64,000 nucleotides of DNA from Nitrospirota bacterium (lineage in GTDB: Bacteria; JACPQY01). The stretch covers positions 1 through 64,000 of the forward strand of contig JACPQY010000040.1 of NCBI GenBank assembly GCA_016190245.1, given 5' to 3'. Both the position numbers and the translations under genes were made by a program. Position 1 is the stretch's first letter. Every line of letters starts with the position of its first letter. Shown piece by piece: positions 1,120 through 59,079 of this stretch. Under the pieces are notes generated by a model. It did not search any database. It was given only the letters and a program-made list of their open reading frames with translations, and was not told where the DNA came from.

Positions 1120-3480
1120 CTAGTCCACCAGGAAGAAGAGGTACTTCTCCACGAAGCCGGGCTCTTCCTTCGATCTGATCTTCGAGACCATCACCGCCGT
1201 GTCCTGCCACGCCACGCCCCCGCCCGCGCGGTCCACGCGCGCGGCGATCAAGGGGTTGACGTGGGTCCCGTTGCCCTCTTTCTCCCACCATAGAAGGACG
1301 GTCTCGGGGTTCGTGCTCTTGAACGCCTTGCCCCTGGCCACGTGTCCGTAGCCCCAATGTCCGCAATTGTCGGAGATGGCCACGACCTTCGGATGGATGC
1401 CCTCCAAGAGGAGCACTTCGCCCTGCACGGAGCCTTGGCGGGACAGAACCTCGATCACGTCGCCGGTCTGGAGCCCCATGGCTTGTCCGGTTGAGCGGTT
1501 GATCACGATCGGGTTGCGATGCACCAACTCGGAGAGTTTGAGGGAGTTGGCCGTGTGGTAGTGGGTGTGAACGTTCCACTGGTACGTGATCAGGGCGAGG
1601 TGAGTGGGCTTCATGTCGCGGTAGACGTCAATCGGCTCATACGTCGGCAGCGGATTGAGTCCCATCGCCTCGAGCCGCGAGGAGTAGATCTCGAACTTGC
1701 CGGACGGCGTGTCGAATCCGTCTTTCTTGTACCGGGCGTAGTCGGGCTTGGCCTCGAGGTCCTTCCAGAACCCTTTCTGGACCAGGTAATCGAGCCCGCC
1801 GGCCTTCTGGAGCGCCCCGATTTCGGAGACCTGCTCGAAGAGATAGTCCTCGGGGTCGAAGGTGAAGTACTGGGTCATCGCGCCGCCAAGGTGCTCGGCC
1901 AGTTCGATGAGGAGGTCCATGATGGGTTTCGACTCTCCGCGGGGCTGAACGACGGGCTGTCGGAGGCCGACGAAGGGCACCATCTCCATGGATGGTGGCG
2001 ATTCGAGTTCCCAACGCTCGAGGTAGGTGGAGGCGGGAAGAACGAGATCGGCCAGTTCCGCCGTTTCGGTCATGTGACTGTCGATCGCAGCGTGGAAGGG
2101 GAGCCGCGTCTCATCTTTGAAGAAGGCGAGGACTTCCTCTGTTTGGGGGCACTCGTACGCCGGGTTCCCCATGTAGGTGAACCACACGGCCACGGGCGGA
2201 GTCTTGTCCTTTCTCTTCGCGAACTCGGAGAAGACTCCGTAGGTGGATTCGCGGCCGCTGCGGGAGTCGAAGAACGGGCTCTTCACGGTGGGGCGGGGCG
2301 GGATGGGCTTGGGCTCGCTGAAGGCGTAGGTGCGCGGCAGGCAGAAGCCTCCGAGGGCGTCCACGCGACCGGTCACCGCATTAAGGAGCATCACGCAACG
2401 CTCATTCTGAACGCCGTTCGCGTGCTTGCTCACGCCACCCGTGGAGAGCGTCGTCGCGTAGCGGCTTCGGGCAAACTCCAAGGCGAGGCGAACGACGTCC
2501 CCGGCCGATACACCGCTTTCCTTCTCGGCCCATTCCGGGGTGTAACGGGCGAGATGCTGGCGCAGTTTGTCGATGGGGTAGTTCGTCCACTGCCGGAGAA
2601 ACGCCTCGTCGTGGAGGTTCTCCTTCATGATGACGTTGGCCATGGCGAGCGCGATGAGGCCGTCCGTCCCGGGGAAGGGGGCGAGCCACTCGTCGCTCCG
2701 CCCGGCCGTCTGGCTGCACCGGGGGTCGAAGGTCACGAGCTTGGCGCCGTAGTGCACCTGCCGCTTCACGATCTTCGTGAGGCGGCCTTCCGTGAGGCGC
2801 TGGACGAAACTCGTGCGCAGGTAGTGGGCCTCGTAGGGGTTGGCGCCGAAGTTCAGGATGTACTCCGTGTTCACGACGTCGGCCACCTCGACCGGCACGC
2901 CCCACGTCATCTCCTGGGCGAGACGCTTGTTCTGGTTGGTGAGCCCGGCGTGGACGAGAGCATGGGGGGAGCCGAAGGCGTGGACGAACCGCTCCGTGAA
3001 GCGCTGCGTCGTGATGTCCCGGCTGCTGTAGAAGAAGAACTTCTCAGGCGTCTTGGCGGCCCAGAGCGCATGGAGTTTTTCGACGAGCACCTGGTAGGCT
3101 TCGTCCCACGTGATCGTTCTCCATTTCCCTTCGCCGCGGGCGCCCACGCGCATCTGGGGTTGGAGGATGCGCTCGGGGTCGTAGAGGATGTCCTTGGCTG
3201 CGTGGCCCTTCGCGCACATGCGCCCCAGCGAGTTGGGGTGGTTGGGGTTGCCGCCGACCTTGGCCAGGGAGCCGTCCGCAGAATACCCGATGATGCCGCA
3301 TCGGGCGTAGCAGTTCAGGCACGTGCTGTAGGTGTTGCGGTGGAACCGCTGCGTTGTGCGGCTGACGCTCCGGCCGCCCATCTTGAGCTCCATCGGCTCC
3401 GCCGCGAGCGGGCAGAGCGTGGCCCCGGCGGCGATCGCGCCGGTGGTGCGGATGAAATCGCGTCGGGTGACTTTGCCCAT
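1120..3480 (-). CDS. Tat-exported molybdopterin oxidoreductase, PsrA/PhsA-like catalytic subunit
   Basis: A 786-residue member of the DMSO reductase superfamily. A twin-arginine signal (TRRDFIRTTG, residues 5-14) points to export. Cys54, Cys57, Cys61 and Cys89 form the [4Fe-4S] site typical of the N-terminus. Length and the NrfD plus four-cluster FeS partners resemble polysulfide, thiosulfate, tetrathionate or arsenate reductases. One oddity: the stretch where those enzymes carry the Cys ligand to Mo (after GSP170-172, around HAGLT 177-181) has no cysteine, nor any between residues 125 and 200. The substrate therefore cannot be assigned, and the protein could even be catalytically altered. 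The gene sits 1 nt from the upstream NrfD stop, implying translational coupling. Confidence 0.85.
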   Translation of the reverse strand: MGKVTRRDFIRTTGAIAAGATLCPLAAEPMELKMGGRSVSRTTQRFHRNTYSTCLNCYARCGIIGYSADGSLAKVGGNPNHPNSLGRMCAKGHAAKDILYDPERILQPQMRVGARGEGKWRTITWDEAYQVLVEKLHALWAAKTPEKFFFYSSRDITTQRFTERFVHAFGSPHALVHAGLTNQNKRLAQEMTWGVPVEVADVVNTEYILNFGANPYEAHYLRTSFVQRLTEGRLTKIVKRQVHYGAKLVTFDPRCSQTAGRSDEWLAPFPGTDGLIALAMANVIMKENLHDEAFLRQWTNYPIDKLRQHLARYTPEWAEKESGVSAGDVVRLALEFARSRYATTLSTGGVSKHANGVQNERCVMLLNAVTGRVDALGGFCLPRTYAFSEPKPIPPRPTVKSPFFDSRSGRESTYGVFSEFAKRKDKTPPVAVWFTYMGNPAYECPQTEEVLAFFKDETRLPFHAAIDSHMTETAELADLVLPASTYLERWELESPPSMEMVPFVGLRQPVVQPRGESKPIMDLLIELAEHLGGAMTQYFTFDPEDYLFEQVSEIGALQKAGGLDYLVQKGFWKDLEAKPDYARYKKDGFDTPSGKFEIYSSRLEAMGLNPLPTYEPIDVYRDMKPTHLALITYQWNVHTHYHTANSLKLSELVHRNPIVINRSTGQAMGLQTGDVIEVLSRQGSVQGEVLLLEGIHPKVVAISDNCGHWGYGHVARGKAFKSTNPETVLLWWEKEGNGTHVNPLIAARVDRAGGGVAWQDTAVMVSKIRSKEEPGFVEKYLFFLVD

Positions 3481-3481
3481 C

Positions 3482-4396
3482 TCAGTGCAGCGGAATGCTT
3501 TGGCCCGCGTACACGACCGTCAGACGCATCGCGTAGATCCCGACCAGCACGAAGGCCGAGGCGACGTTGGCCGCCGCAAGCGAGCCCTTGAACGGCCGCA
3601 TGAAAATCAGGAACAAGGGGATCACGCTCCCCAGCACGATCTCGATCCCCACGAAGAGGAGCTTGAACTGGCCCTTGAGGAGCAGATCCACCACGTAGTA
3701 TTCCTCGGCCTTGGAGGTGAGCAGCACGAGGATGTCGTTCGAGATCAGAAAGAGGTCCACCACGATTGTAGCGCCGAGGAACTTCACGAGGTTCAGGATG
3801 AGCCCCTTCTCGATCGCGATTTCCTGGGGGGGGCGCTTCCTTGCCGTGACCTTGTTGTAGATCGACGAGGCGATCACCATCAGCGCGAAACCGGACACCA
3901 TCGCGGACACGAGGAAGAGCGTGGGCATGAGCGCCGTGCTCCACAGGGGCCGTCCCTTCCCGAGGGCGAGGATGAAACCCGTGTACCCGTGGACGCAGAC
4001 GGCCAGGGGGATGCCGATGATGCCGAGGGTCTTGGCCGCCTTCTGGTTCCCCGTGAACAGGGCCCAGGCATAGATGACGGCATTGAGCGGGTAGGAGGTG
4101 AGGAGAAAGGTGCCGTACGTGATCGGTGAGGTCATCTGGAGGTAGATGAACAGGTACCAGAAGCGCGTCGGCTGCTCGAGATCTATGACTAGGAAGATCG
4201 GCGCGATCACGAGCGCAACGGGGGCCATCACGGCACCGATTTTCCCGAGCGGTTTGTACTCGACCTTGCCGCCGACGACGGCGATGACGGAGATCACGAA
4301 GGATCCGGCGGAGATCCCCGTCAGGTAGAAGTAGGTCGCTATCTCCTTCCCCAGCGGGATGACGTTCGGCGTGTCGAAGAGCGTCCGGACTTCCAC
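3482..4396 (-). CDS. NrfD/PsrC-type integral membrane subunit
   Basis: A 304-residue hydrophobic protein with about eight to nine membrane segments and no haem or FeS motifs, matching the NrfD/PsrC family. These proteins bind quinone/quinol and anchor a periplasmic FeS-molybdenum enzyme. It sits between the FeS subunit (stop 2 nt before its start) and the molybdoprotein (1 nt after its stop), the usual order for a Psr-like complex, so the three genes almost certainly encode one complex. Quinol oxidation or reduction at the membrane is inferred from family knowledge. Confidence 0.88.
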   Translation of the reverse strand: MEVRTLFDTPNVIPLGKEIATYFYLTGISAGSFVISVIAVVGGKVEYKPLGKIGAVMAPVALVIAPIFLVIDLEQPTRFWYLFIYLQMTSPITYGTFLLTSYPLNAVIYAWALFTGNQKAAKTLGIIGIPLAVCVHGYTGFILALGKGRPLWSTALMPTLFLVSAMVSGFALMVIASSIYNKVTARKRPPQEIAIEKGLILNLVKFLGATIVVDLFLISNDILVLLTSKAEEYYVVDLLLKGQFKLLFVGIEIVLGSVIPLFLIFMRPFKGSLAAANVASAFVLVGIYAMRLTVVYAGQSIPLH

Positions 4397-4398
4397 GA

Positions 4399-5055
4399 TC
4401 AGGCCTCCTGTGCCCTCTGCCAGGTCTTGAGAGCGTCTGCGGCGTCAAGGTCCAGGCCCACGTAGAACACGCGCGGCTCCGTGCCCATCTCGGGCTTAAG
4501 CACGCTCACGGGCTCGGTGGCGAGTATCTGCGAAACCTCGCTTGACGGGTCGTTCATGTCTCCGAAAATCCTCGCCCGCCCGATGCAGGTCTCCACGCAC
4601 GCGGGCACGAGCCCGTTATCCACCCGATGGTGACAAAACGTGCACTTCTGGACGTACTTCTTGAGTGGGTTCACATAGCGCACGCCGTAGGGGCACGACG
4701 CAATGCAGTACTTGCAGCCGATGCAGCGGTGTTGGTCGATCATGACGATGCCGTCTTCCCGCTGATAGGTGGCCTGCACGGGGCAGTTGAGAAGGCAGAT
4801 CGGCTTTACGCAGTTATTGCAGAGAATAGGGACGAACGACCGCGAGACGTGGGGATACTTCCCTTTCTCGACGACCTTTACCCAGGTGCGGTACACGCCC
4901 GGCGGGACGTTGTTCTCTTCCTTGCAGGCGACCGTGCACGACTGGCAGCCGATGCAGCGGCGCAGGTCGATGACCATGGCATACCGCTTCTTCTGCGGGG
5001 CCTCGTGCCCGGCGCTTCCCCGCTCGGGCACAAAGGTACCTTCCCCGGTTGCCAT
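4399..5055 (-). CDS. Four-cluster ferredoxin-type subunit (PsrB/NrfC-like)
   Basis: A 218-residue protein with four cysteine clusters of the PsrB/NrfC/DmsB kind: CIGCQSCTVAC near the N-terminus, CNNCVKPICLLNCP, CIGCKYCIASCP, and a CTFC...CVETC pair near residue 145. Such subunits wire electrons between the NrfD membrane protein and the molybdenum site. There is no signal peptide of its own; co-export with a Tat partner is usual for the family. A clear ribosome binding site (GAGGAG) lies about 8 nt before the ATG. The gene is in the centre of the respiratory operon, with the monohaem cytochrome gene 35 nt upstream. Confidence 0.9.
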   Translation of the reverse strand: MATGEGTFVPERGSAGHEAPQKKRYAMVIDLRRCIGCQSCTVACKEENNVPPGVYRTWVKVVEKGKYPHVSRSFVPILCNNCVKPICLLNCPVQATYQREDGIVMIDQHRCIGCKYCIASCPYGVRYVNPLKKYVQKCTFCHHRVDNGLVPACVETCIGRARIFGDMNDPSSEVSQILATEPVSVLKPEMGTEPRVFYVGLDLDAADALKTWQRAQEA

Positions 5056-42949: not shown

Positions 42950-43021
42950 GCCGGGGTAGCTCAATGGTAGAGCAGTCGATTCGTAATCGACAGGTTGTGG
43001 GTTCAAGCCCCGTCCCCGGCT
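42950..43021 (+). tRNA. tRNA-Thr (anticodon CGT)
   Basis: Cloverleaf visible: acceptor GCCGGGG/CCCCGGC, D-arm GCTC-AATGGTA-GAGC, anticodon arm GTCGA-TTCGTAA-TCGAC with anticodon CGT (reads ACG), T-arm GTGGG-TTCAAGC-CCCGT with two wobble pairs, discriminator T. CCA is not encoded. 72 nt. No integrase or att-like duplication is seen beside it. Confidence 0.95.
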
Positions 43022-43029
43022 GACCGACC

Positions 43030-44802
43030 GTGGTGAAACCCCTTCTCGACACATCGGATGGCGCGGTAGCCCGGGAATCGCCGCTGTGGTTCACCCGTCT
43101 GCGATGGGGCGCGGTCGGGGGCCTTGTACTCATGCTGTCGGTGGGGGGACATGTCTTGGGCATCCTCGATGCCGCAGCGCTTCCATACCTGTGGATGCTC
43201 GTAGCGGGCCTCGCGGCAGGCAATGTCGTCTTCCGCGCCCGAGCCGGCCGCGTGGAACGACCCGGACGCGAGGTGCTGATTCAAGTTCTATTCGACTTGG
43301 TCGTGCTCACAGGCCTTCTGGCACTGTCCGGCGGCTCCCTCAATCCCTTCGCGTTCGTCTACGCGTTCCACGTCGTCATGGCCGGGATCCTGCTCCCGGG
43401 CGGGTGGGCCTACCGCATCGCCGGGCTCTCGTCCGTCCTGTTCGTGGGGCTCGGGGCGGTGGGAGTGGCCGGATGGCTCCCCCAGTTTGCCTTGAGATTC
43501 GGCGGGCCGGACTCGATCCCGCTCGCCGAGGAGATCTCGCGACTTCAGTCGGCCCTCGGCGGCAGTCTCCACTACCAGTTGAGCACCGCTGCGGCGTTCA
43601 TCACCTCGATGTTCGTGCTCGCCTTCTTCACGACCACCCTGGCAGGCCGGCTGAGGGAACACCGGCGGAAGGCCGAGGTGCTGGCCGCCACGCTCAGCAG
43701 CAAAGCCGACGAACTGGGACTCGCAGAGGCACAGGTGCGCGAGGAGAAGGCGAAGCTCCTGGCCACCTACCAGTCCATGAGCGACGGAGTCATCCTGCTC
43801 GATCGCGAGAATCGAATCGTGTTCTCGAATGCGGCGGCAGAGGCCTTTCGGCGGCCGGGACGACACGTGGGCCGACCGGTCCTCGCGTGTCACCCGGAGA
43901 TGGCGCATGGCCGGGTGCAGGCCGAGCTGGAGTCACTGCGGAAGGGGCGCCGGACTTCCTTTCACCGGTTGGTGAGCGCGGGCGACCGTACCTTCGAGGC
44001 CACGTACACATCGGTGCGCGACGCGGCCGACCAGCATCTCGGCATCGTGATCGTTTCGCGCGATATCACGGACCGGCTGGAAATGGAAAAGCGGATGGCC
44101 CATCAGGAGAGACTCTCGTCTCTGGCACGGGTGGCGGCAGGACTGGCGCACGAGGTTGGCAATCCCCTCTCCTCGCTTATGGCGCGCCTTCGCCTGCTGG
44201 AAGAAGAGAAGGACGATCCTGCGACCGTGGAGGAGAGCCTCGTCGTTTTGAAAAGGGAGCTCATGCGAATCTCGCGCATCGTGCGTGACATGTCCGACTT
44301 CTCCCGCCCCGCACAGGGTGAGCCGGGCTCGTGTCTCGTGGGCACTGTCGTTCGCGATGTCCTGCGCCTCGTGGAACCGGATGCCCGCGAACGTGGCGTG
44401 CACTTGGAATGCGATCTCGATGGGGAGCTCCCGGCCGTGCCCGCCCATCCCGATCACCTCCGCCAGATCTTTCTAAATCTCCTCATCAATGCGCTGGACG
44501 CCACGCCGGCCGGCGGACGGATCGATGTGGCGGGAGGGCGGCGAGATTCGAAGGTCTGGGTCGCATTCCGGGACACGGGGCACGGCGTCCCCAGCGAACT
44601 CCTGCCGAGAATCTTCGAGCCGTTCTTCACCACGAAGACGGAGCGGAAGGGGACGGGGCTCGGCCTCTGGGTCAGTTACTCCCTCGCCCGGGCCCAGGGC
44701 GGCACCATCGAGATTTCGAGCGAGCCGGGAGCGGGTTCGACTTTCACGGTCCTCCTCGCGTTGCAGCCCCCTCTGTCTGAACCGGCGCAGGTGGAGCCTT
44801 GA
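43030..44802 (+). CDS. Membrane sensor histidine kinase, RegB-like N-terminus with PAS
   Basis: A 590-residue kinase. N-terminal membrane domain with about six helices contains GGSLNPF at 101-107, the GGXXNPF heptapeptide known from RegB/PrrB quinone-redox sensors. A linker coiled coil (about 205-245), a PAS domain (about 246-350) with an odd CHPE motif, then the catalytic core follow: H-box AHEVGNPL (His374), N-box NLLINALDA (Asn487), DTGHGV, GTGLGL. The RegB redox cysteine near the H-box is absent. Its stop overlaps the response regulator start. I infer sensing of membrane redox state and control of the adjacent sigma54 operon. Confidence 0.88.
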   Translation: MVKPLLDTSDGAVARESPLWFTRLRWGAVGGLVLMLSVGGHVLGILDAAALPYLWMLVAGLAAGNVVFRARAGRVERPGREVLIQVLFDLVVLTGLLALSGGSLNPFAFVYAFHVVMAGILLPGGWAYRIAGLSSVLFVGLGAVGVAGWLPQFALRFGGPDSIPLAEEISRLQSALGGSLHYQLSTAAAFITSMFVLAFFTTTLAGRLREHRRKAEVLAATLSSKADELGLAEAQVREEKAKLLATYQSMSDGVILLDRENRIVFSNAAAEAFRRPGRHVGRPVLACHPEMAHGRVQAELESLRKGRRTSFHRLVSAGDRTFEATYTSVRDAADQHLGIVIVSRDITDRLEMEKRMAHQERLSSLARVAAGLAHEVGNPLSSLMARLRLLEEEKDDPATVEESLVVLKRELMRISRIVRDMSDFSRPAQGEPGSCLVGTVVRDVLRLVEPDARERGVHLECDLDGELPAVPAHPDHLRQIFLNLLINALDATPAGGRIDVAGGRRDSKVWVAFRDTGHGVPSELLPRIFEPFFTTKTERKGTGLGLWVSYSLARAQGGTIEISSEPGAGSTFTVLLALQPPLSEPAQVEP

Positions 44803-46163
44803 ACGGTCACCTCCTCATCATCGACGACGAGGACTCCTACCGCGAGGACACGGCCCGCCTCGTGCGCAAGCGCGGACTCACCTGCACCACGGCGCCGGAC
44901 GGGACAACCGGGCTCAGGCTGGCCGAGGAGCGCCGGCCGGATGTCATCCTGTGCGACCTCATGATGCCCGGGATCAGTGGGATTGAGGTTCTCGATCGAT
45001 TGGGCGGCGTCTGCCCGGAGGCCATCGTGTTCGTCGTAACCGCCCACGCCACGATCGAGACCGCCATCGAGGCCCTGAGGCGCGGCGCCCACGACTACCT
45101 GCTCAAGCCGGTCCTGTTCGAGGATCTTCTCGCGAAAATCTCCCGCGCCTTGGAGGTGCGCGATCTTCGAAGAGAGGTCCGCACTCTCCGCCGGGAGATC
45201 TCTCGTCCGGAGGAAACCTTCGGCATCGTCGGCCAGAACCCGAGAATCCGCGAGATTCTGGATCTCATCACACGCCTGCCGCGGAACCGTCCGGCGGTGA
45301 TCGTCCGGGGCGAGACCGGAACGGGGAAAGAACTGGTGGCGCGCGCGGTCCATCTCGTGGGTGACCCTCCCGGGAAAAGGTTTGTGGCGCTGAACTGCGC
45401 GGCCATTCCCGATCACCTGATCGAGAGCGAGCTGTTCGGCTACAGAAAAGGCGCCTTCACGGGTGCGATCGAGGACCGGGAAGGGCACTTCGAGCGGGCG
45501 CACGGGGGGACCTTGTTTCTCGACGAGGTGGCGGCGATGCCACTCTCCCTTCAGGCCAAGCTCCTGCGGGCCATCGAGCAGAAGGAGATCATGCCGATCG
45601 GCGCGCGCGATCCCGTTCCGGCGGATGCCCGGATCGTGGCTTCAGCCCAGAGGGATTTGAGGGACCTCGTGAAAGAAGGCACGTTCCGCCAGGATCTTTT
45701 CTACCGCCTCCTCGTGGTCGAGATCGTCCTGCCTCCGCTTCGGGAGAGGCGGGACGACATTCCGCTCATCCTGGAGCACTACGTGCGGCGGCTGACCGCG
45801 GAGATGAAGGTGGGCTGCGAGGGCGTGGAGCCCGATGCCCTGAGGGCGCTGATGGCCTACTCCTGGCCGGGAAACATCCGAGAGTTGCGCAACGCCGTCG
45901 AGAGGGCGTTGATCGTGCTCAAGGGCAAGGTTCTCCGCCGAGAGGATTTTCCTCGGGACATCGTCGCCGGTGCCGAAGAGGCCGTGGGGCACGACGAACT
46001 CCGTCTGGCCGTCCGCGCCTACGAGCGCGAGCACATCCGCCAAGTGCTGGCCGAGTGCGGGGGTCACCGCGAGCGCGCGGCGTCCCGTCTGGGCATTGAC
46101 CGCGCCACGCTCTACCGCAAGATCAAGGACCTGGGGGTTCCGGGCCTGGACGCAGCAGAATAG
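44799..46163 (+). CDS. NtrC-type sigma54-dependent response regulator
   Basis: A 454-residue regulator starting with TTG that overlaps the kinase stop by 4 nt. Receiver domain with phosphoacceptor Asp53 and Lys103; AAA+ domain with Walker A GETGTGKE (171-178), GAFTGA loop (218-223) for sigma54 contact and Walker B GGTLFLDEVAAM; C-terminal Fis-type helix-turn-helix (RERAASRLGIDRATLYRKI). It should activate sigma54 promoters after phosphorylation by the adjacent kinase; a near-consensus one lies 138 nt downstream. Confidence 0.93.
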   Translation: MNGHLLIIDDEDSYREDTARLVRKRGLTCTTAPDGTTGLRLAEERRPDVILCDLMMPGISGIEVLDRLGGVCPEAIVFVVTAHATIETAIEALRRGAHDYLLKPVLFEDLLAKISRALEVRDLRREVRTLRREISRPEETFGIVGQNPRIREILDLITRLPRNRPAVIVRGETGTGKELVARAVHLVGDPPGKRFVALNCAAIPDHLIESELFGYRKGAFTGAIEDREGHFERAHGGTLFLDEVAAMPLSLQAKLLRAIEQKEIMPIGARDPVPADARIVASAQRDLRDLVKEGTFRQDLFYRLLVVEIVLPPLRERRDDIPLILEHYVRRLTAEMKVGCEGVEPDALRALMAYSWPGNIRELRNAVERALIVLKGKVLRREDFPRDIVAGAEEAVGHDELRLAVRAYEREHIRQVLAECGGHRERAASRLGIDRATLYRKIKDLGVPGLDAAE

Positions 46164-46300
46164 CACCGTTGCGCTGCCGCGACGCCGTCCGCGCCCGGAT
46201 CGTCGCAATCGCGCGACCCGCAGAGCATGCGGGCGCGGGAAGAATCAAGCGAGAACAATAGGGTGGTCGTCCCCCGCCGGAGAGACCCCGCCCGCGCTCG

Positions 46301-46316
46301 TGGCATGAGCATTGCA
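46301..46316 (+). promoter_or_regulatory. Sigma54 (-24/-12) promoter
   Basis: TGGCATGAGCATTGCA matches the consensus TGGCAC-N5-TTGCA with one change (C to T at position 6); the GG and GC pairs have correct spacing. It lies 24 nt before the GTG of the molybdoenzyme gene and directly after the sigma54 activator gene, so the pairing is strong. Confidence 0.85.
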
Positions 46317-46339
46317 TAGGGACTGCAGACCGAGTCACC

Positions 46340-49300
46340 GTGGACCAAGGAGCGAAGACGAAGATAGACCCCGGGAATGTGGAGGAGCCCTCGGGCTCAA
46401 CACAACAGGACACTAGGAAGTCGATCCTCTCCCGTCGCACCTTCGTCCAGTTGTTCGCCGCGGCCGGCGGCTCGCTCGCGTTCCTCGACAAGGAGGCCTG
46501 GGGAAGCGTGTTCACCTTCTTCGAGCCCTTCGACACGCCCAATCCACTTGCCCACTATCCGAACCGGAACTGGGAATCGGTCTACCGCGACCTCTTCCGC
46601 TACGACAGCGCCTTCACCTTCCTGTGCGCGCCCAACGACACCCACAACTGTCTGCTGCGCGCCTATGTGAAGAACGGCGTCGTCACACGCCTCGGCCCCA
46701 CCTATGGTTTCGGCGATGCCGTGGATCTCTACGGCAACCAGGCCTCGCACCGGTGGGAGCCACGCTGCTGCCAGAAGGGGTTGTCGCTCGTGCGCCGCTT
46801 CTACGGCGACCGGCGGTGCAAGTATCCCGTCGTGCGCGTCGGTTTCAAGAAGTGGATGGAAGCCGGCTTCCCGCGCGATCCGCAGACGGGCCGCGTCCCG
46901 CTCTCCTACATGAACCGTGGGAGGGACGGATGGCTCCGCCTTTCGTGGGAGGAGGCGTTCGACCTTTCCGCCCGCGCGCTCGCCAACATCGCCGAAACCT
47001 ACTCGGGTGACGCCGGGGCGAAGCGGCTGAAGGCGCAGGGATACGACGAGGCGATGGTGGAGGCCGTCGGAGGCGCCGGCGTCCAGACGCTCAAGTTCCG
47101 CGGCGGGATGCCCGCGCTCGGGGCGACGCGTATCTTCGCGCAGTACCGCCTGGCCAACTGCATGGCGCTGCTCGACGCGAAAATCCGCGGCCTCGATGCC
47201 ACGAAGGCCGTTGGCGCCCGCGGGTGGGACAATTACTCGTGGCACACGGACCTCCCTCCCGGTCATCCGATGGTCACCGGACAGCAGACGGTGGATTGGG
47301 ATCTGGTGTGCGTGGAGAACGCAGGCCTCGCCGTTGTCTGGGGAATGAACTGGATTGCCACGAAAATGCCGGACGCCCACTGGCTCACGGAGGCTCGTCT
47401 CAAGGGCACGAAGGTGGTCGTGATCGCCTGCGAATACAGTGCCACGTGCAACAAAGCCGATGCCGCCATTGTCGTCCGCCCCGGCACCACACCCGCCCTC
47501 GCGCTCGGACTCGCCGGCGTCATTCTCCGGGAAAAACTTCTCGACGAGGACTACGTACGGAGCACCACGGATCTGCCTTTTCTTGTGCGGATGGACACCA
47601 TGAAGCTCCTACGCGCGCAGGACGTGTGGCCGGACCGCCCACCCGCCGCCATCCAGAACGCCGTTACCGTGGAGCCTCAGGGCGCGAAGCCCGTGCCGAA
47701 CCATCTCCAGCCGAATGCCGTGGTCCCCGAAACCCTTCGCAAGGAGTGGGGCGACTTCGTCGTGTGGGATCAGACCCAGGGCGGTCCGCGCGTGGTGACG
47801 CGGGACGAATTCGGCGCGAAATCTTTTTCCAAGCCCGCCTTGGAGGGCACGTACACGGTGAAGACCGCCGGCGGAGAAATCTCCGTTCGCACGGTCTTCG
47901 ATCTCTTGAAGGAATACGTCCTCGCCAACTTTACCCTCGAACAGACGTCCGACATCACGTGGGCGCCGAAGGAAGCCATTGAATGGCTCGCTCGGGAGAT
48001 CGCCAGGAACAAGGCTTCCACGCTCTTTGCCGTCGGCATGGGGCCGAACCAGTTCTTCAACAACGACCTCAAGGATCGCGCGATCTTCTTCCTGGCTGCG
48101 CTGACGAAAAACATCGGCCTCATTGGCGCCAACGTAGGGAGCTACGCCGGGAACTACAGAGCGGCCTACCTGAACGGCCTGCCGCAATTCATCGCGGAGA
48201 ATCCCTTCGATCTCGAATTGGACCCCTCCAAACCGGCGCGGCCGAAGATGTACTGGAAGGGCGAGTCGGTCCACTATTTCAACGACAGCGAACACGTGCT
48301 GCGCGCAGGCAAGACGCTCATCACGGGAAAAGGCCACATCCCCACCCCCACGAAGGGCATCCTCGTTTCCAACAGCAACTCGCTCATCGGCAATGCGAAA
48401 GGCCACTACGAAAGCGTCGTCAACGTGTTCCCCCGGGTGGAGTTCATCGGCGTCAACGAGTGGTGGTGGACGGCCTCGTGCGAGTACGCCGACATCGTCT
48501 TCCCCGTCGATTCCTGGGCCGAGTTCCGCTTCCCCGACCTCACGATCTCGGTGACCAACCCCTTCCTCTACACCTACCCCCGCACACCACTACCCCGGAT
48601 CTTCAACACGCGGGCCGATATCGAAGTGGCGGCGGGGATCGCCTCCAAGCTCGCGGACGTCACGGGCGATCAGCGGTTCCGGGAGGCATGGAAGTTCATC
48701 TATGAGGGTACGGCCGGGCCCTACCTCCAGCGGGTCCTCGACTTCAGCAGCATGACGCGAGGCTACAAGATGGCCGACCTCGAGAAGAAGGCACAAGAAG
48801 GCGTCCCGTCCATCCTCCTCAGCCGGACCTACCCGAAGGTCGTCGGTTGGGAACAAGGCAACGAGGATCGCCCTTGGTACACCAAGACGGGTCGGCTCGA
48901 GTTCTATCGGGAGGAGGCGGAATTCGCGGACGCCGGCGAGACGATTCCTGTCCACCGCGAGCCAATCGACTCCACGTTCTACGAACCGAACGTCATCGTG
49001 GCGGAAAAGCACCCCGCCATCAGGCCAAAGACACCTGAGGACTACGGCGTGAAGCGCGAGGATCTCTCGGGAGACAGGCGGCAGGCGCGCAACGTCGTGA
49101 AGACGTGGGCCGACCTCAAGGAGACGCAGCACCCGCTGATGAAGGAGGGCCATCGGTTCATTTACCACACGCCCAAGTATCGCCACGGCGCCCACACGAC
49201 ACCCGTGGACACGGACGTCGTCTGCGTGTGGTTCGGCCCGTTCGGTGATGTGTACCGTCATGACAAGCGCAAGCCGTTCATCTCGGAGGCGTTCGTGGAC

Positions 49301-49873
49301 ATCAACCCGCTGGATGCCAGAGAGCTGGGGATCGAAGACGGCGACTACGTCTGGATCGACGCCGACCCCGCCGACCGCCCGTACCGCGGTTGGAAGAAAG
49401 GCACCGAGGAGTACAAGGTGGCGCGCCTGATGATCCGGGCCCGCTACTATCCCGGCACGCCGCGCGGCGTGGCCCGGACGTGGCACAACATGTTCGGCTC
49501 GACGTTCCAGAGCGTGAAGGGGCACGAAACCAACCCCACCGGCCTCGCGAAGGGTCCGGAGACCGGCTACCAGGCCATCTACCGATACGGCAGCCACCAG
49601 AGCTGCACGCGCGGCTGGCTCAAGCCGACGTGGATGACCGACTCCCTCGTCCGCAAGGATCTGCTGGGGCAGAGGATCGGCAAGGGTTTCATGCCGGACG
49701 TCCACTGTCCCACGGGGGCGCCACGGGAAAGTTTCGTCAAGATTACGAAGGCGGAAGACGGCGGCTACGGCGGCCAGAAGCTGTGGAAACCCGCGCGTGA
49801 CGGTTACCGGCCCACCTATGAAAACGACGCCATGAAGCGGTTCATGCGTGGCGAGTTCGTCAAGGCCAAGTAG
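46340..49873 (+). CDS. Periplasmic NxrA/NarG-type molybdopterin oxidoreductase alpha subunit
   Basis: A 1177-residue catalytic subunit of the type II DMSO reductase (NarG/NxrA/SerA/ClrA/EbdA) group. A twin-arginine signal ([14 protein letters not shown], 31-44) shows export. The FS0 cluster region is CAPNDTHNC (96-104) with CC at 143-144. Asp304, in [11 protein letters not shown], matches the Asp ligand of Mo in NarG. Wording such as [21 protein letters not shown] and [19 protein letters not shown] resembles the periplasmic nitrite oxidoreductase clade of Nitrospira and anammox bacteria. Substrate could be nitrite/nitrate, another oxyanion or a hydrocarbon. GTG start; first gene of a sigma54-controlled operon. 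Confidence 0.88.
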
Positions 49874-49882
49874 GAGCACCCC

Positions 49883-51010
49883 ATGCCCAAGGTCCACAAC
49901 TGGCAGATCAATCGAGAGATGGACTATCCCTACGAGGAATCCCGTCCGAAAAAACAGGTGGCGTACGTCTTCGACACCAACAAGTGTATCGAGTGTCAGA
50001 CCTGCTCGATCGCCTGCAAAACGACGTGGACATCCGGCAAAGGCCAGGAGTACATGTTCTGGAACAACGTGGAGACGAAGCCGTACGGCTTCTATCCGTT
50101 GGGGTGGGATGTGAAGATTCTGGAAAAGCTTGGCGCACAGGAGTGGGCCGGCGGCACCTATGCGGGCAAGACGGTGTTCGAGTCGGCGGCGCCCGGCGAG
50201 CGCGTGCTGGGCTACCAGCCGGGAGAGGAGGACTACGCCTCCCCGAACGTAGGCGAGGACGATGTCTCGGAGGTCGTCCAGAAGGGTGCCTTCTTCCAAG
50301 GGATACACAAGACATGGATGTTTTACCTCGCGCGCATCTGCAACCACTGTACCTACCCTGCATGCCTGGCTTCCTGTCCGCGAAAAGCCATCTATAAGCG
50401 GGAGGAAGACGGCGTGGTGCTCATCGATCAGACCCGCTGCCGCGGCTACCGCGAGTGCGTGAAGGCCTGCCCGTACAAGAAGGTGTTCTTCAACCTGATG
50501 ACGCGCGTCTCGGAGAAGTGCATCGCCTGCTACCCGCTCCTCGAACGGGGCAAGCAGCCGCGTTGCGTCGAGACCTGTATCGGGAGGATTCGACTCCAAG
50601 GTTGGCTCAGCCGGGCGGGTGAGGAGAAGAGGGACAACCCCATCGACTACCTTGTGCGCATCCGCAAAGTGGCCATCCCGCTCTATCCCCAGTACGGCCT
50701 CGAGCCGAATGTGTACTACGTCCCGCCGATCCACGTGCCGCGCGAGTTCCTGCTCCAGATGTTCGGCCCGGCGGTGGACGCGGCGGTGGACACCTATCGA
50801 AAGGCGAAAGACGACAAGGAACTCCTGGCGGCCCTGCTCCTGTTCGGGAGCTCGGATCAAACGATGACCTCCTTCAAGCGGGATGGCGACGCCGTCCTCG
50901 GCTACAACGCGAAGGGCGAACAGGTCGTGCGCGTCCCCTTCAAGGAACCGGTCTACATCCGGCCTTACTTTGATGAGAAGAACAATGTCTACCGACACAA
51001 CATCACGTAG
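49883..51010 (+). CDS. NxrB/NarH-type four-cluster iron-sulfur beta subunit
   Basis: A 375-residue electron-transfer subunit beginning [19 protein letters not shown], close in style to NxrB. Four cysteine clusters: [11 protein letters not shown] (35-45), [26 protein letters not shown], and CIAC...CVETC. The [17 protein letters not shown] stretch is typical of the family. In the first cluster all four Cys are kept, where Nitrospira-type NxrB has an Asp, a difference that may shift cluster potential. It would be co-exported with the alpha subunit and pass electrons to the haem subunit. Confidence 0.9.
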
Positions 51011-51071
51011 AGCACCTAACACGGTGAACTTCTCGACAAAGGGCATCATGTTTGAGGTTCAAAGGCGAGCC

Positions 51072-51974
51072 ATGAGGAACGTCACAGCCGTGGCGCGCGT
51101 GGGTCTCGTGGTCTTGGCTGCTCTCGCGTGGAGTCCGGCCGCACCGGCGTCCGATTTCGAAATCGTCGCCAAGCACATCGGCAGCGGCCCGCTCCCCACG
51201 CTGAATCCGAACGACCCGAAGTGGAAGAGCGCTGCCGAGGCGGAGCTTTGGCTCCTTCCGCAGAACATGATCGCGCCGTCGCTTATCCAGCTCACGATCC
51301 CGTGGCTGAAAGTGCGGGCCCTCTGCAACGATACCGACATCGCGTTCCGTCTGGAGTGGCCGGACCCGACGCAGGACTACGTCCTGGACATCGGTGGTTT
51401 CTCGGACGGCGTCGCGATCGAATTCCCAATAGGACCCGCGGATCCGTCGCCCTTCATGGGTCACCCCTCCCAGGACGGCCAGCCGGCCGGACGTGTGCAC
51501 ATCGTCCACTGGAAAGCGACGTGGCAGGTGGACATGGACAAGGGTTTTCAGGGTGTCGATCAGATCTACCCGAACGCATGGTGGGACATCTACCCGTTCC
51601 TCAACGGAGCCTTCCCCTTCCTTACCGAGCAGAGTCTGACCGCCCGCGAGACGCTGAACTACTCGCCGGGCGCCTATGTCGGCAATCCGGTCTCGCTGAC
51701 GAAGCGGAAAACGCCCGTGGAGGAGTTGATCGCCGAAGGTTTCGGAACTCTCACCACGCAACCCCGTCAGGACGCCTGGGGCGTGGGCCTGTGGCGCGCG
51801 GGCAAGTGGACCGTAATTCTCGCGCGCCCGAAGGTTTCGAAGGACGCCATGGACAGCGTGCTCCCCATGCAAGGCGAATCCAAGAGGGCCTTCGCCGTGT
51901 GGAACGGATCGGACCAGGACCGCGGCGCCCGCAAGCACTACTTCCCATGGACCTCGCTCAAGATCGGGCCCTAA
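51072..51974 (+). CDS. Haem b-binding gamma subunit (EbdC/DdhC/NxrC-like)
   Basis: A 300-residue secreted protein (signal to about PAAPASD) of the ethylbenzene-dehydrogenase-related haem domain family. Features include the beta-sandwich phrases IAFRLEWPDPTQDY and GFSDGVAIEFPIG, and a segment with GHPSQDG...VHIVHWKATW; Met and Lys axial ligands are known for the family. It is the periplasmic exit of electrons from the alpha-beta pair. ATG 51072 gives the signal peptide directly; ATG 51048 is possible. Order A-B-C-D equals that of ebdABCD. Confidence 0.83.
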   Translation: MRNVTAVARVGLVVLAALAWSPAAPASDFEIVAKHIGSGPLPTLNPNDPKWKSAAEAELWLLPQNMIAPSLIQLTIPWLKVRALCNDTDIAFRLEWPDPTQDYVLDIGGFSDGVAIEFPIGPADPSPFMGHPSQDGQPAGRVHIVHWKATWQVDMDKGFQGVDQIYPNAWWDIYPFLNGAFPFLTEQSLTARETLNYSPGAYVGNPVSLTKRKTPVEELIAEGFGTLTTQPRQDAWGVGLWRAGKWTVILARPKVSKDAMDSVLPMQGESKRAFAVWNGSDQDRGARKHYFPWTSLKIGP

Positions 51975-52699
51975 CGCAGGGCATTCCGGCAGGTCGCCGC
52001 AACCGCGATGCGATGCGGTGGCTGGCCCGGGCGGATATGTTCCGCTTCCTCGGCAGGTGTTTCGACTACCCGACCGAAGGAGACCTGGATGACCTGACGC
52101 ACGTCGGTCGGTCCCTCGCTGCAGGCCCGCACCTGCACGAGCGGATTCGATCGCTGGTGGTGAATGTGTGCGAGGAGGCAAGCACCCGCGATCTCCAGAC
52201 GGAGCAATGCGAATACGAACGGATCTTCGACGTCGCGCCTGTCTGTCCCCCCTATGAATCGGCCTTCTGCCCGGCCCTGAAGGAGCGGGTTCTGTGTGAC
52301 ATCGCCGGCTTCTACACGGCGTTCGGACTGACACCGAGCGCCCGGCGCGCCGAGAGGCCGGATCACATCTGCGCCGAACTGGAGTTCCTATCCGTTGTCT
52401 CGGTCAAACTTGCGCTCGCCACGAGCGAAGGCCGCTTGGAGGCGCGCGAAGTGTGCGAACACGCCTATCGATCGTTTCTGGGAGATCACCTCGGACGTTG
52501 GGCCCAGCCGTTTTGCGAAGAGGTTGCCGCCGCCTCGAATTCCCGCCTCGTGGGGTCATCCACCTCCCTGCTCGCCCACTGGACCGCGCACGAGTTGAGA
52601 GTGCATCGGGTCCGGACGGATCCGTACACCGCCCCGGGCGTCTTGCCCCCGGAGGCGGAGATCTCGTGCGGGATGTCAGCCCAACCGCCGCAGGGGTAG
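51947..52699 (+). CDS. NarJ/TorD-type molybdoenzyme chaperone
   Basis: A 250-residue all-helical protein. The CPPYESAF motif (about residue 103) and EYERIFDVA before it are the NarJ/TorD signature. Such chaperones bind the Tat signal of the catalytic subunit and time cofactor loading before export. It overlaps the gamma subunit gene by 28 nt if started at ATG 51947; ATG 52013 is an alternative. No signal peptide, consistent with cytoplasmic action. Confidence 0.85.
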   Translation: MDLAQDRALTQGIPAGRRNRDAMRWLARADMFRFLGRCFDYPTEGDLDDLTHVGRSLAAGPHLHERIRSLVVNVCEEASTRDLQTEQCEYERIFDVAPVCPPYESAFCPALKERVLCDIAGFYTAFGLTPSARRAERPDHICAELEFLSVVSVKLALATSEGRLEAREVCEHAYRSFLGDHLGRWAQPFCEEVAAASNSRLVGSSTSLLAHWTAHELRVHRVRTDPYTAPGVLPPEAEISCGMSAQPPQG

Positions 52700-52747
52700 T
52701 CGCCACACCCACGCGGATGTAGAGTCCATCGTGTGAAAGGGAGAAAC

Positions 52748-54037
52748 ATGGAAATGCCTTTCTCATTCCGGGCTCTTCGAAGAGGGATGCTGGCCGCCGC
52801 GTGTTGCTCGCTGCTTGCCGGTTGGTCCGTGCCGCCGAGCGAGGCCCTCGCGGACGCGCAGGTCAACTTCCAGTACCGCCCGCGAGCCGAGATGAAAGGC
52901 GCCGGCTACAAGAATCCCAACACGGAGGCCACCCACGCCTACTTCGAAGCCTCGCACCGCGCCCGTCTGGGCGCCAAGTTCACGCACGCCTCTGCGCCAG
53001 GCGCCGCCGCCCTTGTCGAGATCCAGGATGTCCGTTTCTTCGGCGAGGAGTTCGATACGCTGAACGATTTCGTGGCCGATGGATTCGACCTACATCAGGG
53101 ACTCGTTGACCTCTACGATGGGGAAAGCAGGTTGGGTGTTCGGGTCGGCCGGCAGGAGCTCACTTATGAGGAGCATCGCCTTTTCGGCAACGTGGACTGG
53201 ACCCAGCAAGGCCGCTCCCACGATGCGGTCGTCTTTCGGTGGGACCCCAAGCCCTACGAGATGCATCTCGGCCTGGCGAAGAACCTTGGGCGGTCACGGC
53301 TCACGGGGACGTACAACAAAGCGTACAAGGACTACAGCACCTATCGCGAACTCTCCTTTCTGTGGGTCAAGAGATCCTTCGATCAGGCCGCCGCGAGCGT
53401 CTACGCGGTGTATGACACTCCGAAGGACGTTTCCACGCGATGGACGGTTGGACCTCGGGTCGAGTCCAAACACTTCGGCCTCCAGAGCCGGGCAGAAGCC
53501 TACTACCAGCAGACCAAGAAGCCCGACAAGGATGCCGTGAAAGGGTACTTTCTGGGCCTCACGACGGGGAAGACGGTTCCCATCGGCGGGCTCAACGCCA
53601 CGGTTGCAGGCTGGTACGATCTCAGTTCGCCTGATTTCTACAGTCTGTACCCGACGGCCCACAAGTTCTTCGGGTACATGGATCTCTTCCTTGCGTTTCC
53701 GGCCGACACGAAGTTCCCGGGCGACAATGGGACCAAAGGCCTGCACGATCCTGCCCTCCGGCTGACGGTGGCCGCCGGAAAGTGGAAAGTTCTACTGGAC
53801 GCTCACTATTTCCTGCTCACCAAGGACGCCGACGGTGAAAAGGCCATCGGGCCGGAGGTGGATCTCACGATTCCCGTCGCGGTCCATGATGCCGTGACGC
53901 TCACGTGCGGCGCCAGCGCGCTCGTCCCTGGGAAGGCGATGGAGAATCTCAAGGGCAAGGGCGAGGGGGCAGCCTTTGCGCCTGCCGATCTTCAGACCGG
54001 CATCTGGTCGTATGTGATGCTGGACGCCAAGTTCTGA
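52748..54037 (+). CDS. Outer-membrane beta-barrel, alginate-export (AlgE) family-like
   Basis: A 429-residue barrel protein: signal peptide to about ALADA, then strands including RVGRQELTYEEHRLFGNVDWTQQGRSHDAVVFRW, the hallmark of the alginate-export family, and a terminal Phe (VMLDAKF). A GGGAG-like site (AAAGGGAG) precedes the ATG. Placed 48 nt after the chaperone gene, it is likely part of the same operon. I infer passage of the enzyme's substrate or product across the outer membrane rather than alginate export. Confidence 0.8.
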   Translation: MEMPFSFRALRRGMLAAACCSLLAGWSVPPSEALADAQVNFQYRPRAEMKGAGYKNPNTEATHAYFEASHRARLGAKFTHASAPGAAALVEIQDVRFFGEEFDTLNDFVADGFDLHQGLVDLYDGESRLGVRVGRQELTYEEHRLFGNVDWTQQGRSHDAVVFRWDPKPYEMHLGLAKNLGRSRLTGTYNKAYKDYSTYRELSFLWVKRSFDQAAASVYAVYDTPKDVSTRWTVGPRVESKHFGLQSRAEAYYQQTKKPDKDAVKGYFLGLTTGKTVPIGGLNATVAGWYDLSSPDFYSLYPTAHKFFGYMDLFLAFPADTKFPGDNGTKGLHDPALRLTVAAGKWKVLLDAHYFLLTKDADGEKAIGPEVDLTIPVAVHDAVTLTCGASALVPGKAMENLKGKGEGAAFAPADLQTGIWSYVMLDAKF

Positions 54038-57684: not shown

Positions 57685-59079
57685 ATGCGTCTCCTGATTG
57701 TGGATGATGAGGACGAGTCACGGCGCCTGATCCGCAGCGCCATCGAGGGCATCCCCGTCGATCCCCGGGAAATCGAGGAAGCCGCCAGCGGCGAGGAAGC
57801 CGCCGCGCGACTCGCCCAAGCGCCGTTCGACATCGTCCTCACGGACATGGTGATGGACCGCATGGATGGTCTCAAGGTGCTCAAGGCCGCCAAGGACGCC
57901 CGGACCGAGACCGAGGTCATTCTGGTGACGGCGTACGCCACGATCGAGTCGGCGGTGAAGGCGATCAAGGCGGGCGCTTTCGACTACATCTCCAAGCCCG
58001 TCCACGCTGAAGAGGTGCAACAGGTGGTGCTGCGAATCCTGGAGCGGCAGAACCTGCTCCGGGAGTTGGAACGGTTCAGGGATGAGGTGGAGAGCCGAAG
58101 CACGATCGATCGCATCATCGGCGATTCCACGCCGATCCGCCAACTGAAGAAAATGATTCAGAGCGTGGCCGAGGCCGACGCGCATATCCTGATCACCGGC
58201 GAGACCGGGACAGGCAAGGAGCTTGTCGCGCGCGCCTTGCATTCGCTCTCCAAGAGGAAGGCGCGCCCGATTGTGGCGGTCAACTGCGCGGCTTTGCCGG
58301 AGAACCTGCTCGAGAGCGAGCTGTTCGGCTACCGCCGCGGCGCGTTCACGGGGGCCGGCGCCGACAAGCGGGGGCTGATCGAGGAGGCCCACGGCTCGAC
58401 ACTTTTCCTTGACGAGATCGGCGAGATGCCGCTGACGCTTCAGGCCAAGTTGCTCAGAGCGTTGGATACGGGCGAGTACCGCCGGCTGGGCGACGTGAAG
58501 GCGCACCACGTGGACGTCCGTGTGGTCGCTGCCACAAATATCCACGTGGAGCGGGCCATCCGGGAAGGGAAGTTCCGGGAGGATCTCTTCTATCGCCTGT
58601 CCGTCTTTCATGTGGTCCTCCCACCGCTAAGGGAGCGGGTGGAGGACATTCCCCTCCTGGTTCAGCACTATGTCCGGGAGTTCGCGGAGAAGTTCGGCAA
58701 GCGCACCGAAGGTGTGAAACCGGACGGCCTGCGGTACCTCTCGCGGCTGAGATGGGACGGCAACGTGCGCGAGCTCTCGCACGTGATCGAGAGGGCGGTG
58801 GTGCTGTCGCAGGGGACGATGATTCCCATCGAAGATCTCTCTCAGATCGTCGGGGATCGGGCCGAGGCGGCGGAGCCGATCCTTCCGCTCCATCAGGTGG
58901 AGAAGAATTGCATCCTCGAGGCGCTCCAGCGTTGCGGGGGGCAGAAGGAGAAGACCGCGCAGGTGCTGGGGATCTCCACTGCCACGTTGTGGCGCAAGCT
59001 CAAGGAGTACGGGATCTCGGCTCAGGCGGCGGGGCGAGCCGCGCGCGCCGCGAATGAACGAGACGGGAGCTCGGAGTAG
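57685..59079 (+). CDS. NtrC-type sigma54-dependent response regulator (orphan)
   Basis: A 464-residue regulator: receiver with Asp54 and Lys104, AAA+ domain with GETGTGKE (172-179), GAFTGA (219-224) and FLDEIGEM, and a C-terminal helix-turn-helix (KEKTAQVLGISTATLWRKL). All parts needed for sigma54 activation are present. No histidine kinase gene is adjacent, so the partner is elsewhere or shared. It starts 35 nt after tolB and may be co-transcribed with it. Confidence 0.93.
   Translation: MRLLIVDDEDESRRLIRSAIEGIPVDPREIEEAASGEEAAARLAQAPFDIVLTDMVMDRMDGLKVLKAAKDARTETEVILVTAYATIESAVKAIKAGAFDYISKPVHAEEVQQVVLRILERQNLLRELERFRDEVESRSTIDRIIGDSTPIRQLKKMIQSVAEADAHILITGETGTGKELVARALHSLSKRKARPIVAVNCAALPENLLESELFGYRRGAFTGAGADKRGLIEEAHGSTLFLDEIGEMPLTLQAKLLRALDTGEYRRLGDVKAHHVDVRVVAATNIHVERAIREGKFREDLFYRLSVFHVVLPPLRERVEDIPLLVQHYVREFAEKFGKRTEGVKPDGLRYLSRLRWDGNVRELSHVIERAVVLSQGTMIPIEDLSQIVGDRAEAAEPILPLHQVEKNCILEALQRCGGQKEKTAQVLGISTATLWRKLKEYGISAQAAGRAARAANERDGSSE

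Follow-up and report, generated by a model that had tools for sequence, protein, structure and literature searches.

Which reaction is carried out by a molybdenum enzyme whose genes lie directly behind a membrane kinase, an NtrC regulator and a sigma54 promoter, and does this control unit belong to the enzyme? The question is raised by positions 43030–54037 of the window, by which we mean the whole 64,000-nucleotide stretch of Nitrospirota DNA analyzed here (contig JACPQY010000040.1). The original prediction saw in this locus a periplasmic oxyanion or hydrocarbon oxidoreductase, switched by the redox state of the quinones through sigma54. The enzyme is a member of a known but poorly characterized clade, its most likely identity is that of a periplasmic nitrate reductase, and its control unit represents a variant of the sigma54 regulation that was suggested earlier for nitrite oxidoreductase (nxr) genes.

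Layout of the locus

From the kinase to the barrel, the features follow one another in unbroken order on the + strand, and domain searches and coordinates bore out the genes, domains and order described in the original prediction:

42950–43021: tRNA-Thr (CGT), ending 8 bp ahead of the annotated start of the kinase
43030–44802, +: membrane histidine kinase with GGSLNPF (101–107), PAS, HisKA (His374) and HATPase
44799–46163, +: NtrC-family response regulator with receiver Asp53, Walker A at 171, GAFTGA at 218 and a Fis-type HTH
46217–46233: weak candidate dyad for activator binding, CCCGCA-N5-TGCGGG, some 68 bp upstream of the -24 element
46301–46316, +: sigma54 (-24/-12) promoter TGGCATGAGCATTGCA, 12/12 match
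46340–49873, +: alpha (catalytic) subunit of the NXR/pNar superclade, with Tat motif, FS0/substrate motif and Mo ligand
49883–51010, +: beta subunit with four Fe-S clusters (15 Cys and Tyr189)
51048–51974, +: gamma subunit, an EbdC/NxrC-like heme b protein (Met137 and Lys296)
52013–52699, +: NarJ/TorD-type maturation chaperone, 52013 being the first ATG of the frame
52733–54037, +: outer-membrane beta-barrel, AlgE-like, 18 predicted strands

The NtrC gene overlaps the kinase stop by 4 bp, and the gap of about 176–178 bp between the NtrC and alpha genes holds the -24/-12 site. Homologues of the kinase align from about residue 17, and translation may really begin some codons past 43030; with the tRNA-Thr gene so close, either the tRNA promoter could drive the kinase gene or the kinase could begin further downstream. 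The operon contains no membrane anchor or cytochrome c gene, and the next gene past the barrel is glmS (named from sequence). Elsewhere in the window, a second NtrC-type regulator (57685–59079, +) lies 3.6 kb past the operon and is distant from the first in the NtrC tree. On the - strand at 1120–5055, a molybdopterin oxidoreductase, an NrfD-type membrane protein and a 4Fe-4S protein make up a polysulfide-reductase-like three-subunit complex.

The catalytic subunit and its clade

The alpha subunit carries a Tat motif SRRTF (31), the FS0/substrate motif CAPNDTHNC (96–104) and Asp304 within WHTDLPPGH. The names given to it by Pfam and NCBIfam stop at the level of the family. Its homology to Kuenenia NXR-A is full-length (932 bits), and the next solved relatives, a set that also includes NarG, reach at most 170 bits (PcrA-type 170, EbdA 141). 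When the Mo, substrate, FS0 and heme ligands of the Kuenenia enzyme (PMC8387239) are mapped onto alpha, Asp304 (Mo), Asn99 (substrate), and Cys96 and Asp100 (FS0) are all kept, as is the 3Cys/1Asp pattern of FS0. The proposal that Asp304 binds the molybdenum agrees with its alignment to Kuenenia Asp275.

The superclade falls into two clades both in a tree of 141 alphas and in one of 81 computed with a mixture model. Clade I (NXR) holds Nitrospirota NxrA, anammox NXR (one member scores 2384 bits against Kuenenia) and a Planctomycetota group. Clade II (periplasmic Nar) holds the window, its closest relative G001, Methanoperedens, Halobiforma nitratireducens (a long row in the tree), Omnitrophota and many MAGs. 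In the mixture-model tree the window sits in the clade II set (59 rows, branch value 100), the NXR clade comprising 20 rows (96), and in both trees it falls outside the Nitrospira/anammox NXR clade. Clade II is a large sister clade of the NXRs, to which the window's alpha belongs. Tree placement, the check put forward with the original prediction, did not assign the protein to a clade that is well studied and shares its regulatory genes, but to one made up mostly of MAGs, together with Methanoperedens and haloarchaeal Nar, most of whose members are without these regulators. Clade I and clade II enzymes also occur in tandem, on one contig each, in the NC10 genome CSP1-5 (L038) and in a Nitrospinae MAG (L106).

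The residue after the Mo aspartate differs among these enzymes. The loop reads D-L-P-P in the window, as it does in E. coli NarG and the 100 sequences of clade II, and D-Q in 31 sequences of Nitrospira, anammox bacteria and an allied group, from which the window differs; the Planctomycetota group has Leu at this place (WHGDL loop). Leu after the Mo aspartate, as in NarG, points to nitrate reduction, but the signature falls on one branch and so represents one event, which makes it a pointer rather than a proof.

Partner subunits

The beta subunit has 15 Cys and Tyr189, a set identical to that of Kuenenia NxrB. Residue 45 is Cys in the window, in clade II and in anammox bacteria, and Asp in both distinct Nitrospirota sequences examined, which confirms the earlier observation that the first beta cluster keeps four cysteines, unlike Nitrospira-type NxrB. 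The gamma heme ligands are conserved (Met137 in 100/101 sequences, Lys296 in 101/101). Together, the Tat signal, four-cluster beta subunit, b-type gamma subunit and NarJ-like chaperone are traits of a periplasmic Nar. The barrel was modeled at low confidence (mean pLDDT 59) with 18 strands, its best match being AlgE, and one may guess at a porin for nitrate and nitrite. Similar barrels stand directly beside the operon in four other loci (L028, L035, L041 and L101), and the barrel-bearing loci are members of the window's own 12-row alpha subclade (branch value 100).

Substrate and direction

The host genome encodes NirK, above the family cut-off, and a cbb3-type oxidase, the sole COX1-family match looking like cbb3. 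In this assembly, which is 85% complete, NrfA was not found and there is no convincing NirS. This combination fits a partial denitrifier, and nitrite oxidation is also compatible with it: with a cbb3 oxidase present, nitrite oxidation with oxygen is conceivable. The reaction of Kuenenia NXR is reversible.

Two other readings of the enzyme have to be weighed against periplasmic nitrate reduction. A different substrate, whether hydrocarbon hydroxylation or selenate, chlorate or perchlorate, would be in keeping with the shared type II DMSO reductase superfamily and with the family-level names given by Pfam and NCBIfam. It is very improbable nonetheless: the PcrA and EbdA bit scores are five- to sixfold below the NXR score, the EbdA equivalog model yields 153 bits against a cut-off of 2000, the NXR/Nar ligands are all conserved, and other type II DMSO reductase alphas are encoded elsewhere in the host, on contig C47. 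A hydrocarbon or a chlorate/selenate enzyme was rejected on these family scores, which are far too low. Of the predicted periplasmic oxyanion or hydrocarbon oxidoreductase, then, the periplasmic molybdenum enzyme of the NXR/Nar kind stands, and hydrocarbon, selenate and chlorate have become unlikely substrates. The closer contender is a nitrite oxidoreductase in vivo, whose electrons would pass via the heme b gamma subunit to a cytochrome c and the cbb3 oxidase. In its favor, an NXR is the one strong match among solved structures and has the same FS0 and substrate ligands; the oxidase is present, NirK is also found in nitrite-oxidizing Nitrospira, and NXR was proposed in PMC10732223 for members of the wider superclade that are poorly annotated. 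Yet alpha lies outside the clade of known periplasmic NXRs, its Mo loop is NarG-like, and cultured nitrate reducers fall in the window's own clade, so that we regard this direction as unlikely, if less so than another substrate. Nitrate and nitrite are favored as the substrate pair, with reduction as the favored direction, and alpha is most likely a periplasmic nitrate reductase.

The C47 region (G000:C47:13663-29346; L113 and L114) holds several of these type II DMSO reductase alphas in close proximity, in frames of about 990–1090 aa, along with beta-like genes, and a similar group of alphas lies on contig C24 of G001 (L110). That G001 contig also bears the relative's clade II operon and, close to a gene for a COX1-family oxidase, another alpha (about 40%) that belongs to the NXR clade (L109, G001:C24:14000-33900). 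G001 is possibly a nitrite oxidizer with both enzymes.

The regulators

The NtrC protein is complete, with receiver Asp53, AAA+ Walker A, a Fis-type HTH and the GAFTGA motif of the original prediction at residue 218, and has the features of a sigma54 activator. Its partner kinase has a multi-helix membrane region (PF25323, 6TM_PilS, 24.9 bits, below the cut-off of 27) and, at residues 101–107, GGSLNPF, which matches the quinone motif GGXXNPF of RegB. In RegB this heptapeptide is the quinone (ubiquinone) site (PMC8191878; PMC10525716). The kinase is not a RegB, however, because the redox cysteine is missing, a PAS domain is present and the partner is an NtrC. At the place of that cysteine, 40 residues after the phospho-accepting His, the window kinase has Ile, its only cysteines being at 287, 435 and 461; the RegB equivalog NF033792 gives 104 bits against a cut-off of 350; and the adjoining regulator is of NtrC type rather than RegA. 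The RegB/RegA system proper was ruled out, as both the redox cysteine and the partner fail. What survives of the supposed RegB-like kinase is the GGXXNPF motif, which suggests quinone as the signal on the basis of one heptapeptide.

Motif-bearing homologues of the kinase usually adjoin an NtrC gene. Among 45 genomes encoding a superclade alpha, the two best kinase matches are the kinases beside nxr in two Planctomycetota loci (L100 and L102). A broad sample of 386 genomes also contained full-length relatives that are not beside nxr, so that kinases of this type are not confined to the enzyme.

The sigma54 promoter

The site at 46301–46316 fits TGGCAYRNNNNTTGCW at 12/12 defined positions, with GG-N10-GC inside TGGCAYR-N4-TTGCW upstream of the alpha gene, so that the promoter first described as near-consensus is in fact a perfect match. 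It is the sole exact match within the 64-kb window, and none of 400 dinucleotide shuffles of the intergenic region reached 11/12. Across the loci compared, the density of sites of at least 11/12 is 0.12/kb over the 500 bp that precede alpha, and no more than 0.004/kb in most of the alpha body and downstream genes. RpoN is encoded in the host genome. From the promoter position the transcript start is expected at about 46327, in agreement with the start of about 46326 proposed earlier.

An activator-binding site in the window was rejected, since its dyads are weak and without statistical support. They are unlike those of the Planctomycetota loci, where clear dyads lie upstream. Two strong ones, GGTACACA-N4-TGTGTACC (L102:3260-3291) and ACTCTAGTACACA-N4-TGTATACTAGAGT (L160:7451-7480), stand about 160–220 bp upstream of their sigma54 sites and are probable NtrC binding sites.

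Recurrence of the module

A GGxxNPF kinase, an NtrC, a -24/-12 site and nxr genes come together in five Planctomycetota genomes (L100, L102, L160, L161 and L162). In each of these loci a GGAENPF or GGVENPF kinase and a GAFTGA NtrC precede an 11/12 site, followed by the C, A, B and chaperone genes. In L162 two ferredoxin genes intervene between NtrC and nxrC; 10/12 sigma54-like sites also stand before these 4Fe-4S ferredoxin genes (L162:9100-11711), hinting at a wider regulon. The search for the arrangement in other genomes, suggested with the original prediction, thus recovered the module, but in loci whose alphas are all on the NXR side. Before a clade II alpha, L166 has a motif-less kinase, an NtrC and an 11/12 site, and a Sandaracinaceae MAG (L050, Myxococcota) has a kinase and an NtrC just upstream of alpha, with no good -24/-12 site. 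Between the NtrC and alpha of L050 (between 9317 and 10001) lies a gene for a small secreted Cys-rich protein; this high-potential iron-sulfur (HiPIP)-like protein is a possible electron partner.

In 5/85 loci, against 0.17 expected, the enzyme genes are directly preceded by an activator gene in the same orientation; this count leaves out the window, L050 and L162, and four of the five loci belong to one clade. The Nitrospirota nxr regions have an activator directly upstream in 5/10, which agrees with PMC6606698, where sigma54-dependent regulators beside Nitrospira nxrAB were published. For Planctomycetota MAGs, a figure legend in PMC10732223 mentions an NtrC-family kinase and s54 regions in the vicinity of gene clusters of this kind. 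In view of the former paper, and of the latter as far as that legend goes, the statement that no described system joins these parts was too strong. The joined kinase-NtrC-sigma54 switch consists of known parts; it is found again in unrelated bacteria, with hardly any published description.

In the NtrC tree the window regulator stands next to L252 (branch values 100/97) and the Planctomycetota regulators group with L094 and L181 (100/100). On this separation, and with no clear branching order in the kinase tree, a single origin of the kinase-NtrC-nxr unit was rejected; the link to nxr probably arose more than once, and the recruitment of the window NtrC looks independent of the Planctomycetota lineage.

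The closest relative, G001, has an alpha that is 82% identical, and in a first sample of 60 relatives it alone was closer than domain level. Its glmS is 67% identical, against at most 53% in all other genomes searched. At its locus no kinase, NtrC, sigma54 site or barrel was found beside alpha, and a sigma54 site conserved in G001 had to be dismissed as absent. That this relative is without the switch despite so similar an alpha implies that the switch was gained or lost recently. A 1,670-aa RCC1-like-repeat protein occupies the regulators' place upstream of the G001 alpha (L108:3548-8557).

Could the kinase and NtrC then be chance neighbors that control other genes, the -24/-12 match being fortuitous or belonging to another regulator? 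The orthologous enzyme of G001 manages without them, most clade II loci are likewise without adjoining regulators, and related kinase-NtrC pairs occur away from nxr. Against this stand the exact site between regulator and alpha, which no shuffle matched even at 11/12, the recurrence of this layout in several lineages far more often than chance would give, and the sigma54 regulators beside Nitrospira nxr, both in the literature and here. As the module is present elsewhere, the arrangement in the window is not a chance neighborhood, and we hold this explanation to be quite improbable. Sigma54 control of the enzyme, as first proposed, is retained, and its switching by quinone redox state rests on one heptapeptide.

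A working model

The locus is probably a respiratory module, in which a periplasmic nitrate reductase would be switched through sigma54 by an NtrC and a membrane kinase, with quinone as the signal. The kinase would read the quinone pool, as GGxxNPF suggests, and phosphorylate the adjoining NtrC, on which transcription from the promoter just downstream would depend. A Tat-exported alpha-beta complex, with Mo-bisMGD and five Fe-S clusters, would be matured by the NarJ/TorD-type chaperone, partnered by the heme b gamma subunit, and would reduce nitrate to nitrite in the periplasm; anions may cross the outer membrane by way of the AlgE-like barrel. Of these steps, the direction of the reaction and the nature of the signal are the least certain; phosphotransfer and the role of the barrel are inferred as well.

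Enzymes of clade II are found in many phyla, for the most part annotated as “molybdopterin oxidoreductase”, and MAG surveys have not settled in which direction they work. A testable handle on direction is offered by the amino acid that follows the Mo aspartate, which is Leu in NarG and clade II and Gln in the Nitrospira/anammox group; the gene-local sigma54 switch offers another on when the enzyme is made. It is also possible, if on balance doubtful, that sigma54 activators, including quinone-reading kinase/NtrC pairs, were recruited independently several times to NXR/pNar enzymes as a common redox-state switch. If so, the redox state of the respiratory chain would decide whether these reversible enzymes get made.

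Comparison with known systems

The kinase shares with RegB/PrrB/ActS a membrane region with GGXXNPF, but it adds a PAS domain, has an NtrC instead of RegA, and has no Cys at the position of RegB Cys265. The Planctomycetota loci have the same kind of switch, but their alphas are 46–48% identical and on the NXR side of the tree, the gamma gene comes first, the NtrC is from another lineage, and no barrel was found. Nitrospira nxrAB resembles the window in its periplasmic alpha-beta enzyme, of the sister clade, and in its upstream sigma54 activators, with 11/12 -24/-12 sites before several nxrA. Those activators align mainly outside the receiver region, however, and no kinase adjoins nxrA; the Mo loop is D-Q, alpha is about 40% identical, and in beta the fourth Cys of the first cluster is replaced by Asp. 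The NXR of Kuenenia stuttgartiensis (7b04; PMC8387239) shares the Mo, substrate, FS0 and heme ligands and the three-subunit ABC make-up. Anammox alphas differ from the window in their identity (about 42%), their place in the NXR clade and their D-Q loop, and no kinase or NtrC was found near anammox nxr. Methanoperedens NarG is a Tat-exported nitrate reductase in a cluster with NarJ and a b-type cytochrome (PMC4683180). The Methanoperedens and haloarchaeal loci are archaeal, with no kinase or NtrC matches in the flanks fetched, and the haloarchaeal clusters, unlike the window, add a Rieske/cytochrome b complex. With Methanoperedens NarGH and haloarchaeal pNar, the window shares the alpha clade (58–59% identity to Methanoperedens), a Tat-exported alpha, the NarJ-type chaperone, a b-type cytochrome and the D-L-P-P loop.
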